Source: Rhodoferax potami (lineage in GTDB: Bacteria > Pseudomonadota > Gammaproteobacteria > Burkholderiales > Burkholderiaceae_C). Taken from it: a stretch of 64,000 bases of DNA. Below are positions 20,322 to 25,099 of the stretch, in pieces (position 1 is the first letter of the stretch; each line of letters begins with the position of its first letter). A model generated the notes under the pieces. That model had not been told where the DNA came from. It was given only the letters and a program-made list of their open reading frames with translations, and searched no databases. The position numbers and the translations under genes are program-made. The stretch is taken from NCBI RefSeq assembly GCF_032193805.1, contig NZ_JAVBIK010000001.1:3059001-3123000 (forward strand). The letters run 5' to 3'.

Positions 20322-21452
20322 TTACGCGTCGAGCAGGATGCGCAGCATGCGGCGAAGTGGCTCGGCCGCGCCCCACAACAGCTGATCACCGATGGTAAAG
20401 GCGCCCACGTACTCAGGCCCCATCGCCAGCTTGCGGATACGGCCCACAGGAATCGTCATAGTACCGGTCACTGCCACGGGTGTCAGATCCTGGATGGTGG
20501 CTTCCCGGGTGTTGGGCACCACTTTTACCCACTGGTTGTCTGCCGCGATCATGGCTTCGATGTCTGCCACGGGCACGTCTTTCTTCAGCTTGAAGGTGAG
20601 AGCTTGGCTGTGGCAGCGCATCGCGCCCACGCGCACGCAGAAACCATCCACGGGAATCGCGGAGCTGCCGAAGCCTTCGCCCATGCCCAAAATCTTGTTG
20701 GTTTCGGCCATGCCTTTCCACTCTTCCTTAGACATACCGTTGCCCAGGTCTTTGTCGATCCAAGGAATCAGGGAGCCGCCCAGTGGAACGCCGAAGTTGG
20801 CGGTCTCCGCGCCGGTCAGTGCGCGTTGCTTGGCGATGACTTTGCGGTCAATTTCCAGAATCGCGCTCTTGGGGTCGTCGAGCAAAGCTTTGACTTCCGC
20901 GTTCAGCGTGCCATATTGGGTCAGCAGCTCGCGCATGTGCTGGGCACCGCCGCCAGACGCAGCTTGGTAGGTCTGGGTGCTCATCCATTCGACCAAGCCA
21001 GCCTTGTACAGTGCGCCCACGCCCATCAGCATGCAGCTTACGGTGCAATTGCCGCCCACCCAGTTCTTGCCGCCTTTGGCCAGCGCGTCCTTGATGACAG
21101 GCATGTTGACCGGGTCGAGAATGATGACCGCGTCTTTTTCCATGCGCAGTGTGGAGGCTGCGTCAATCCAGTGGCCGTTCCAGCCCGCAGCGCGCAGCTT
21201 GGGAAACACTTCCGTGGTGTAGTCGCCACCTTGTGCGGAAATGATGATTTCGCAACGCTTCAGGGCGTCGATGTTGAAAGCGTCTTGCAGCGTGGTTTCG
21301 TTTTTGGCCCAAGCCGGTGCTTTGCCACCCGAGTTTGATGTGGAGAAGAACAGAGGTTCGATCAAGTCGAAATCCTTTTCCTGCTCCATGCGATCCATCA
21401 ACACTGAGCCGACCATGCCGCGCCAGCCGACCAAACCTACCAACTTGCTCAT
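20322..21452 (-). CDS. asd: Aspartate-semialdehyde dehydrogenase
   Basis: NADPH-dependent reduction of aspartyl phosphate to the semialdehyde, the branch point to lysine, diaminopimelate, threonine, methionine and isoleucine. 376 residues, the long proteobacterial form. The N-terminal [18 protein letters not shown] binds NADP; the active-site Cys is in [13 protein letters not shown]; the substrate Arg/His segment is [21 protein letters not shown] candidate leader peptide and hairpin lie directly upstream (21502-21649). It has a ribosome-binding site GAAAGG. Confidence 0.97.
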
Positions 21453-21501
21453 ATCAACGCCCTTTCAATGTAAACAAACGATGCCCGACCTGGGCTGTTT
21501 G

Positions 21502-21544
21502 CTCCGGCTCGTCTGGCCGGGGGGCGCACGACGATACCGGAGCT
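21502..21544 (-). promoter_or_regulatory. asd: Strong hairpin between leader ORF and asd
   Basis: On the minus strand GCTCCGG-TA-TCGTC pairs with GACGA-GCCGGAGC (12 base pairs with a small bulge). The 5' arm starts four bases after the leader ORF's stop codon. No U tract follows directly; GTTTGTTTA comes about 25 bases later, after a small GCCC/GGGC stem. A simple intrinsic terminator is therefore not evident. Confidence 0.6.
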
Positions 21545-21547
21545 GGA

Positions 21548-21649
21548 TCAGCCCTTAATGGTCGTGGTTTTGGAAATGATTGCGCGCGCGGCTATGTCTG
21601 CCATGGAGGCAGTCAACAAGCTCAAAGAGAAGAGGCGGGCGGCAAACAT
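21548..21649 (-). CDS. Candidate leader peptide of asd (33 residues)
   Basis: ATG at 21649 opens a 33-codon ORF that ends 95 bases before asd. The last ten residues are IISKTTTIKG, so eight of the last ten are Ile, Lys or Thr, which are all end products of the pathway asd feeds. A -10-like TACAAT (21661-21656) lies six bases before ATG, the spacing expected for a leaderless start. The stop codon is followed four bases later by a strong hairpin. This is the layout of an attenuation leader such as thrL. No homologue was checked, and the N-terminal half looks like an unremarkable hydrophobic sequence. Confidence 0.5.
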   Translation of the reverse strand: MFAARLFSLSLLTASMADIAARAIISKTTTIKG

Positions 21650-21712
21650 GGATTTATTGTAGCGCAAAACAAGAATTTTTTGCTCCGCGCGGACTGAAAT
21701 GATTTTGAAGTG

Positions 21713-21750: not shown

Positions 21751-22821
21751 TTATGCCAGAGCCTTCAGCACGGCATCGCCCATCTCTTTGGTGCTGACCC
21801 GTTGTGTGCCTTCGCTGTAGATGTCAGCCGTGCGATAGCCTTGCGCCAGCACCTTTTGTACAGCCGCTTCAATGCGCTGTGCGGCAGCTTCTTGGTTCAG
21901 GCTGAAGCGCAGCATCATGGCAGCACTCAGGATCGTGGCCAGCGGGTTGGCAATGCCTTTGCCGGCGATGTCCGGTGCGCTGCCATGGCTGGGCTCGTAC
22001 AGACCCTGGTTGCTGCTGTTCAAGCTGGCAGAAGGCAGCATGCCGATAGAGCCTGTCAGCATGGAGGCTTCGTCGGACAAGATGTCGCCAAACATGTTGC
22101 CGGTGACCAGCACGTCAAACTTCTTGGGCGCTTTGACCAGTTGCATGGCGGCGTTGTCCACCAGCATGTGGTCGAGTTCTACGTCGGGGTACTGCTGGCC
22201 CACTTCAACCATCACGTCTTTCCACAGCTGCGAGGTTTCCAGCACGTTGTTTTTGTCGACACTGGTGACGCGCTTGTTGCGCTTTTGGGCGGCCTGGAAC
22301 GCGACGTGCGCAATGCGCTCAATCTCGGGGCGGCTGTAGCGCATGGTATCGAACGCTTCTTCGGCTCCGGGGAAGTGACCATCGGTGGCGATGCGGCGTC
22401 CGCGGGGCTGGCCGAAGTAAATGTCGCCAGTCAGTTCGCGGATGATGAGGATGTCCAGGCCGGCAATCAGCTCGGGCTTGAGGCTGGAGGCGCCCACCAG
22501 CTGCTCGTAGCAAATGGCAGGGCGGAAGTTGGCAAACAGGCCGAGGTTTTTGCGCAAGCCCAGAATGGCCTGCTCGGGGCGGAACTGGCGCTCCAGTTTG
22601 TCGTACTTCCAGTCGCCTACGGCGCCGAACAACACCGCGTCGGCTTCCTTGGCCAGCTTCAGGGTAGCTTCGGGCAGGGGGTGGCCGTGGGCATCGTAGG
22701 CGACGCCACCCACCAAGGCGGTTTCCATTTCCAAGGGGAGTGCCAAAGCGTTCAATACCTTGACGGCTTCTGCCACAATTTCGGTGCCAATGCCGTCACC
22801 CGGCAACACTGCAATTTTCAT
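21751..22821 (-). CDS. leuB: 3-isopropylmalate dehydrogenase
   Basis: Oxidative decarboxylation of 3-isopropylmalate to 2-oxoisocaproate in leucine synthesis. 356 residues, with the [17 protein letters not shown]-terminus, the decarboxylase signature [20 protein letters not shown], and the substrate-binding [22 protein letters not shown] region. Its ribosome-binding site (AAAGGA) lies just beyond a copy of dispersed repeat A that fills the leuD-leuB gap. Confidence 0.97.
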
Positions 22822-22889: not shown

Positions 22890-23506
22890 GTTGCCAAACG
22901 CTGGGCTTCGAAGGCCTTTATTTTGTCGGCATGGCGCAGGGTCAGGCCAATGTCGTCAAAGCCGTTGAGCAAGCAGTACTTGCGGAAGGCTTGCACCTCA
23001 AACGGGATTTCTTCGCCCTGCGGCTTCACGATGACCTGGCGTTCAAGATCAATCGTGAGCTGGTAGCCGGGGAAGGCCAATGCTTCGTTGAACAGCTGGT
23101 CCACCTGCGCCTCGCTCAGCTGGATTGGCAGCAGACCGTTTTTGAAGCAGTTGTTGAAGAAGATGTCTGCGTAACTGGGCGCGATGATGGCGCGAAAGCC
23201 ATATTGGTCAATCGCCCAGGGTGCGTGCTCACGGCTGGAGCCGCAACCAAAGTTCTTGCGGGCCAGCAGGACCGAGGCGCCCGCATAGCGAGGCTGGTTC
23301 AACACAAAGTCCGGGTTGGGCTTGCGGCTGGCGGGGTCCTGGCCGGGGTAGCCCGCGTCCAGGTAGCGCCATTCGTCAAACAGGTTTTGGCCGAAGCCGG
23401 TTTTGCGGATGGATTTGAGGAATTGCTTGGGGATGATCGCGTCGGTGTCCACGTTTTCGCGGTCCATGGGCGCAACCAGCCCTTGGTAAACGGTAAATTT
23501 TTTCAT
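22856..23506 (-). CDS. leuD: 3-isopropylmalate dehydratase small subunit
   Basis: Small subunit of the LeuCD isomerase that turns 2-isopropylmalate into 3-isopropylmalate. 216 residues with the conserved [13 protein letters not shown] and [20 protein letters not shown]. It overlaps the entericidin-like gene by ATGA at 23503-23506, and its 3' end lies in a dispersed repeat. Confidence 0.97.
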
Positions 23507-23631
23507 TTCTTGGCAGCGCCTTCAATTTTTTCGCCTGCTTTTTGCAGGTCCTGACCCATGCCTTTGACCGTGTTGCAGGCAGACAGCAACAGCAGGGTCG
23601 CGGCGCATACGGCGATAAGTGCGGTTTTCAT
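23503..23631 (-). CDS. Entericidin EcnA/B-like small lipoprotein
   Basis: Short gene of 42 codons wedged between leuC and leuD. The product starts [19 protein letters not shown], a lipoprotein signal with lipobox LSAC, and continues [20 protein letters not shown], the typical entericidin pattern (NTxxGxGxDxxxxGxxIExA). Entericidins are small membrane lipoproteins linked to stationary-phase lysis in E. coli. The start is ATG 23631, 19 bases after leuC, and the stop overlaps the leuD start, so it is part of the leu operon. Why it lies there is unknown. Confidence 0.88.
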
Positions 23632-23650
23632 ATTCAGTCCTTTCAATGGG

Positions 23651-25099
23651 TCAGGCGAACTTGCGGATGTCGACAAAGTGGCCGTGGATGGCTGCAGCAG
23701 CTGCCATGGCAGGACTCACCAGGTGGGTGCGGCCACCGGCACCTTGACGGCCTTCAAAGTTGCGGTTGCTGGTGGAGGCGCAACGCTCACCGGGCTCGAG
23801 GCGGTCGGCGTTCATTGCCAGGCACATCGAGCAGCCAGGCTCGCGCCACTCAAAGCCGGCAGCCTTGAAGATTTCGTGCAGGCCTTCGCGCTCGGCCTGC
23901 TCTTTCACCAAGCCGGAACCGGGCACGACCATGGCCAGCTTGATGTTCTTGGCGACTTTTTGGCCCAGTTTTTTCACTACGGCCGCGGCTTCACGCATGT
24001 CTTCGATACGGCTGTTGGTGCAAGAGCCGATAAACACTTTGTCCACGAACAAATCGTTCAGGGCCTTGCCGGGCTCCAAGCCCATGTAGGTGAGTGCCCG
24101 CTCAATGGCGCCACGCTTGTTGGCGTCTTTTTCCTTGTCGGGGTCCGGCACGATGGCGTCTACGCCCAGCACCATTTCGGGCGAGGTACCCCAGGTAACT
24201 TGCGGCACGATTTGGGTGGCGTCCAGCTCGACCACAGTGTCGAAATGGGCGCCGGCGTCGGAGTGCAGGGTCTTCCAGAAGGCGACTGCCTGGTCCCATT
24301 CCACCGCCGCGGCCTCTGGGGAGGCTGCGTTGGCGCCGGGCGCCAAGGGGCGGCCCTTGACGTAGTCGATGGTTTTTTCATCGACGGCCACCAGACCGGC
24401 GCGGGCGCCGGCTTCAATGGCCATGTTGCACACGGTCATGCGGCCTTCCATGCTCAGCGCACGGATGGCGGAACCGCCAAATTCGATGGTGTAGCCGGTA
24501 CCGCCTGCGGTGCCGATTTTGCCGATGATGGCCAGCACGATGTCTTTGCCGGTGATGCCGGGGGCGACTGTGCCCTCGACCTTGACCAGCATGTTTTTGG
24601 CCTTTTTGGCCAGCAAGGTTTGCGTAGCCATGACGTGCTCGACCTCGCTAGTACCGATGCCGTGCGCCAGTGCGCCAAATGCGCCGTGGGTAGAGGTGTG
24701 GCTGTCACCACAGACCACCGTCATTCCCGGCAGGGTGGCGCCGTTCTCAGGCCCCATGACATGTACGATGCCTTGGCGCTTGGACAGAAAGGGGAAGAAG
24801 GCCGCAGCACCGAATTCCTTGATGTTGCTGTCTAGCGTAGTGACCTGTTCTTTGCTGGTCGGGTCGGTGATGCCGTCGTAGCCCAGTTCCCAACCGGTGG
24901 TCGGGGTGTTGTGGTCGGCGGTGGCCACGATGGAGCTGATGCGCCATACCTTGCGACCTGCTTCACGCAGCCCTTCAAACGCCTGGGGGCTGGTCACTTC
25001 ATGGACCAGATGGCGGTCGATGTAGAGGATGGAGGTGCCATCGTCTTCGGTGTGGACGACGTGGTCGTCCCAGAGTTTGTCGTAGAGCGTGCGTGCCAT
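23651..25099 (-). CDS. leuC: 3-isopropylmalate dehydratase large subunit
   Basis: Large, [4Fe-4S]-containing subunit of isopropylmalate isomerase, 482 residues. Cluster cysteines are visible in [17 protein letters not shown] and [29 protein letters not shown] is the aconitase-family signature. It starts 13 bases after a LysR-type regulator gene on the same strand, and is followed by the entericidin-like gene, leuD and leuB. Confidence 0.97.

Follow-up and report, generated by a model that had tools for sequence, protein, structure and literature searches.

A candidate attenuator between leuB and asd

We propose that asd is controlled by a ribosome-mediated attenuator, which is the best explanation, and a moderately probable one, for the sequence upstream of this gene in the window (the whole 64,000-nt stretch of DNA analysed here). 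By sequence comparison, the element combines conserved control codons, two mutually exclusive helices that covary, and a loop with complementarity to the asd Shine-Dalgarno sequence. The regulated gene encodes aspartate-semialdehyde dehydrogenase (376 aa; 20322-21452, minus strand, ATG at 21452), the branch point for the synthesis of lysine, threonine, methionine, isoleucine and cell-wall diaminopimelate. The gene order on the window's minus strand is leuC, leuD, leuB (21751-22821), a 298-base gap and asd. A small lipoprotein-like ORF, entericidin-like by eye, lies between leuC and leuD (23503-23676, minus strand).

The gap contains a 33-codon leader ORF (MFAARLFSLSLLTASMADIAARAIISKTTTIKG; 21548-21649, minus strand) whose TGA stop codon (21550-21548) is separated from the asd ATG by 95 bases. 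Its last ten residues include three Thr, two Lys and three Ile, and a TACAAT hexamer (21656-21661, minus strand), the putative -10 box of the leader promoter, stands six bases (AAATCC) 5′ of the leader ATG at 21649. All of these features had been read from this sequence before (the original prediction), and we confirmed them at the same positions. The control codons are AAA ACC ACG ACC ATT AAG GGC (K-T-T-T-I-K-G; 21551-21571, minus strand), marked by their low dN/dS and by their share of Thr, Lys and Ile.

Conservation of the leader across the family

We assembled asd loci from two sources, 80 of them from named genomes and a further 140 or so from the window's family. At each locus, the asd start and the LeuB end were located and every ORF ending before asd was scored. 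The set of 220 loci includes the window and near copies of it; one locus (L036) was omitted, its contig being cut just before asd, which leaves 17 loci, and not 18, with neither form of the leader.

We found that asd is preceded at 128 of the 220 loci by a stand-alone leader with a Thr/Ile/Lys run at its end. At another 75 loci, one third of the relatives, LeuB itself carries the run at its C-terminus and the same hairpin follows; this form of the leader was not part of the original prediction and is absent from the window's own leuB. The remaining 17 loci carry neither form. The control codons are thus retained at 203 of the 220 loci while the flanking sequence drifts, and close relatives clearly conserve them. 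The two forms are cleanly exclusive: LeuB has its ordinary end (...MGDAVVKAL(G)) where a separate ORF is present, and it extends where a separate ORF is absent (for example ...VVAAITTTTKTIKS, ...VVKAITKTTKG and ...GATMTKTIKG). The last eight codons are 48% Thr, 22% Lys and 16% Ile in the stand-alone class (86% together) and 38% Thr, 24% Lys and 16% Ile in the LeuB-tail class. In the latter, Met, which the pathway likewise produces, is found in the run as well. The order and length of the run vary; its composition stays Thr, Lys and Ile. One LeuB-tail locus (L181) has about 100 extra bases between the switch and asd. Two metagenome bins titled Akkermansia and Singulisphaera (L029 and L031) contain a Comamonadaceae-like leuB-asd locus, and are most likely misbinned contigs.

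The leader ORF as a putative peptide-coding sensor

The end of the leader is constrained as a coding sequence. We calculated a dN/dS of 0.14 for codons 28-33, compared with 0.80 for codons 2-23 and 0.86-0.89 for the two wrong frames. The body of the peptide, with a ratio close to that of the wrong frames, is therefore not kept as a protein, and a protein function for it is unsupported; what is kept is the end, the length and the frame. The leader is 33 codons long at 82 stand-alone loci. Of 114 unique leaders, only 24 have an open +1 frame over the leader stretch and only 18 an open +2 frame; an open frame 0 follows from the way in which the leaders were chosen.

A -10 hexamer is located 6-9 nt before the leader ATG at 117 of the 128 stand-alone loci. 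With this spacing, transcription is expected to start on the ATG or within about three bases of it, and the mRNA of the stand-alone leader is probably leaderless or nearly so. A sigma-70 consensus scan returned no full promoter near the leader, where only the -10 element is conserved, and no -35 element was recognised there by eye. A stand-alone leader in another family of the order (L248, family f13) seemingly has a normal Shine-Dalgarno start (AGGAAG AAC ATG) in place of a leaderless one.

Two exclusive helices downstream of the leader

The main hairpin after the leader occupies positions 21543-21501 of the minus strand. The original prediction had found this hairpin, placed it one base off (21544-21502) and given it 12 bp; it has more pairs than that, since its outer stem alone has 13 pairs and one bulge, and there is an additional inner stem. 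Together, the hairpin and the ORF end are far beyond chance, because the hairpin has a folding z of -2.7, both recur 5′ of asd in nearly all relatives, and a covariance model of the element finds a single site in the window's own genome (E = 1e-16; the next match has E = 0.88).

Going beyond the original prediction, the sequences indicate a switch of three strands in which this hairpin is one of the alternatives. Strand A (GCUCCGGUAUCGUC; 21530-21543, minus strand) is the 5′ arm of the main hairpin, strand B (21516-21520) reads CCGGC in the window and is longer in most relatives (CCCCGGC), and strand C (GACGAGCCGGAGC; 21501-21513) is common to both of the helices A:C and B:C. We tested their covariation on an alignment of 42 diverse sequences. 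The A:C helix is paired in 88.5% of cases and 6 of its 11 pairs have changed on both sides; for the B:C helix, the pairing is 95.2% and 3 of 6 pairs have changed on both sides. None of 500 shuffles reaches the covariation score of either helix. Related sequences may beat shuffles even when no structure is present, but slid versions of A:C and B:C, which keep the relatedness, score much worse. The B:C helix uses the 3′ part of strand C that also belongs to A:C, and the two helices cannot coexist. The window's own B:C helix has only 5 bp.

A further strand (strand 1, GGGCUG; 21549-21554, minus strand) spans the stop codon and is able to pair with CAGCUC (21545-21540), holding strand A. Across relatives, the stem over the stop codon has a mean of 5.6 bp, compared with 4.7 bp in shuffles. 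In many stand-alone sequences, the loop of the B:C hairpin (CCAGAC) is complementary to the loop of a small third hairpin downstream of it (SL3; GUCUGG in relatives), which makes a loop-loop contact possible (21520-21475 in the window, minus strand). This complementarity is above shuffles in 67 of 100 stand-alone sequences (P = 2e-7), and it is not above shuffles in the LeuB-tail class.

Alignment of the relatives produced the pattern that the original prediction had looked for, a drifting short ORF with a kept Thr/Ile/Lys run and compensatory changes in the hairpin. As a whole its interpretation is partly supported, and it holds at its core: a thrL-type leader peptide for asd is supported by the retained control codons, the drift of the rest of the ORF and these compensatory changes.

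Ribosome position and predicted helix choice

We folded the RNA made up to strand C from successive points, treating everything earlier as covered by the ribosome. When the front edge of the ribosome is placed at -12 to +6 from the stop, corresponding to a ribosome on the Thr/Ile codons, A:C is predicted in 99-100 of 100 stand-alone sequences; when it is placed at +15 or +18, corresponding to a ribosome on the stop codon, B:C is predicted in 95-100 of 100. The LeuB-tail sequences follow the same course (of 63, 45-57 form A:C at the first set of positions and 54-62 form B:C at the second). The computed flip from A:C to B:C occurs between +9 and +15 from the stop. According to these calculations, the change takes place as the ribosome passes from the last control codons to the stop codon, the interval in which an attenuator requires it. 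We consider the sensor-and-switch part of the model to be very likely on this comparative evidence.

Proposed masking of the asd Shine-Dalgarno sequence

The upper part of the main hairpin contains a putative anti-Shine-Dalgarno strand (GCGCCC; 21522-21527, minus strand). This loop strand, GCGCCC(U), is complementary to the (A)GGGCGU of the asd Shine-Dalgarno region (GAAAGGGCG; 21458-21466, minus strand). In 49 of 49 stand-alone genomes, the loop is more complementary to the asd Shine-Dalgarno than to the genome's own leuB ribosome site, and in 99 of 100 cases the match is better than that to the asd sites of relatives that have no switch. When full-length RNAs of the stand-alone class are folded, moving the ribosome edge from +6 to +12 raises the loop:Shine-Dalgarno pairing from 0.8 to 4.2 pairs. 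In 78 of 100 of these sequences, the Shine-Dalgarno is less open at +15 than at +6 (P = 2e-10). Taken alone, the loop:Shine-Dalgarno helix shows modest covariation, its score being reached by 21 of 2000 shuffles, and in single-sequence folds of the window the lowest-energy structure does not contain this helix.

We infer a mechanism with the following steps, in which the leaderless start, the stalling, the direction of the response and an output on translation, not transcription, go beyond direct comparison. Transcription would begin at or beside the leader ATG, and the leader would be read from a leaderless or nearly leaderless mRNA. When threonine (or isoleucine or lysine) is short, the ribosome would stall on the KTTTIK codons with its front edge short of strand A, allowing A to pair with C; the A:C hairpin would then hold the anti-Shine-Dalgarno bases GCGCC inside and leave the asd ribosome site free. 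When amino acids are plentiful, the ribosome would reach the stop codon and cover the base of strand A, so that C would pair with B and the released GCGCCC would bind GGGCGU in the asd Shine-Dalgarno and reduce asd translation. The Thr/Lys/Ile tail on LeuB would take the same role in part of the family.

In the LeuB-tail class, the predicted opening of the Shine-Dalgarno does not change significantly with ribosome position (P = 0.5). Moreover, in several LeuB-tail subclades and in members of another family (f31), the partner of the loop is a strand immediately 5′ of the Shine-Dalgarno (for example, CCUGGACCCC with GGGGUCCGGG, CCACAAACCC with GGGUUUGUGG, and CUUCCCCGC with GCGGGGAAG). Consequently, a translational output is the favoured reading for the window's class only.

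Alternative explanations

The same sensor and switch could act on transcription, such that under replete conditions RNA polymerase would stop before asd, either at SL3 and its U-rich neighbourhood or via Rho; we regard this as possible but rather unlikely. The missing U tract that the original prediction had recognised after the main hairpin is a general property: none of 163 sequences has an 8-mer with at least five T starting 2-8 nt after strand C. The main hairpin is therefore not an ordinary terminator, and a terminator scan of the window also found none on the minus strand here; together, these two results rule out an intrinsic terminator at this hairpin. Enterobacterial thrL-type attenuators do end in terminators, and SL3, located between the switch and the Shine-Dalgarno (21475-21501, minus strand), folds better than its shuffles (mean folding z of -1.3 in 100 stand-alone sequences). 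In 93 of 100 stand-alone sequences, an 8-mer with at least five T is found in the interval from strand C to the Shine-Dalgarno, and SL3 with its U-rich neighbourhood could be a weak terminator in this class. However, SL3 has no strand in common with A, B or C, and so the switch has no obvious control over it. The U-rich stretch is also often absent from the LeuB-tail class, and an output on transcription would leave the complementarity to the asd Shine-Dalgarno unexplained. Of Rho and masking of the asd start, the two routes offered by the original prediction, folding and this complementarity favour masking. With no U tract and a loop able to pair with the asd Shine-Dalgarno, the window is best explained by translational attenuation; given the sensor and switch, a translational output is likely.

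Two further explanations would do away with amino-acid sensing or with attenuation as such. The leader or leuB stop is mostly 70-115 nt 5′ of asd, and most of this stretch is folded, which would suit a coupling of translation in which the hairpins merely bring the stop near the asd start for re-initiation. Such coupling requires neither a Thr/Ile/Lys run, yet the run is the leader's most conserved part and is also present on LeuB tails, nor two exclusive helices, and we consider it improbable. The hairpin could otherwise serve an unrelated purpose, such as stabilising the RNA or binding a protein, with the Thr run as a by-product of conserved RNA pairing; the nucleotides of the run are indeed conserved at the DNA level too, and part of the run is able to pair with strand A. 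But the run is kept as amino acids despite changed codons, whole-codon insertions and different orders (TTTTTTIKG, KTTTIIKG, ITKTITKG and TMTKTIKG), and it recurs in two other families with other sequences; we consider this explanation very improbable.

Relation to known systems

Leaders of the thrL type, leaderless leader genes and translational attenuators are each already known kinds. The thrL leader precedes the thrABC operon in enterobacteria (Rfam Thr_leader). Here, the target is asd and not thrABC, Lys codons (and Met codons in some relatives) join the run, the hairpin has no terminator U tract after it, the sequence and fold are different, and the mRNA is probably leaderless. In ermC-type translational attenuators, the Shine-Dalgarno is hidden until a ribosome stalls on a short leader ORF. 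We propose the same event for asd, with the stall arising from uncharged tRNA at Thr/Ile/Lys codons and not from a drug. Some leaders of the trpL type, among them peTrpL of Sinorhizobium meliloti, are leaderless, and the asd leader would likewise be at the transcript's extreme 5′ end. As a trpL-type leader (PMC7298713), peTrpL differs in having Trp control and a terminator, in place of Thr/Ile/Lys control without such a terminator.

The LEU element 5′ of leuA in Actinobacteria has control codons in a leader peptide, lacks a terminator and forms a helix with the Shine-Dalgarno of the regulated gene (PMC1262725), all of which the proposed asd element shares. In the LEU element, however, the leucine codons themselves pair with the Shine-Dalgarno, whereas the asd element would use a separate loop strand gated by the three-strand switch. 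A 2013 survey found the amino-acid attenuators in Rfam limited to His, Leu, Thr and Trp (PMC3766115). At the gathering score, an Rfam scan found no family in the window, and a permissive scan (E up to 5) brought up no Thr_leader and nothing beyond a chance match to symR on the opposite strand. Within the full-text literature searched, whose coverage leaves out most subscription papers, we found no prior description of asd control by attenuation in these bacteria or in Betaproteobacteria.

It is reasonably plausible that, over evolution, this leader has been at some times a stand-alone leaderless ORF and at others the C-terminal end of LeuB, that this LeuB tail senses starvation on behalf of asd, that Thr, Ile and Lys (in some cases Met) are read by one codon run, and that the output is on asd translation. 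The element explains the odd Thr-rich LeuB tail in many genera. The natural series of separate and enzyme-fused leaders allows a direct test of how the end of a preceding gene becomes an attenuator, and the LeuB-tail species provide a clean genetic test system for asd control.

Spread and history of the element

Among 250 genomes of the order, the covariance model of the element has strong matches only in the window's family; in 243 genomes of the other families, it gave only matches near E = 0.002-0.01. We also searched the DNA upstream of asd at 114 order-level loci, nearly all from other families. Diverged Thr/Ile/Lys leaders are present in two further families of the order (f31 and f13), with their own alternative hairpins. 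The leaders in three large-genome members of f31 are TATTIKTITKTIP, TIKTITPKTITKR and ITKTISLKTITLR, and those in three members of f13 are RTTTIITKTVMKG, TIITKKTKTIILV and TIITKKTKTTVLV. The remaining order-level loci score far lower, and the leader score in the other families is bimodal.

On the asd tree, the LeuB-tail state needs about 10 changes, at least 4 of which are forced by well supported branches; the tree was built by a quick method, has many weak branches and gives no direction of change. The number of changes suggests that the leader probably switched between a separate ORF and a LeuB tail several times. Several loci among L199-L220 belong to a strongly diverged asd clade (about 65-73% identity) on a long supported branch, where the asd gene was probably replaced by transfer; the leader and switch ahead of it are retained.
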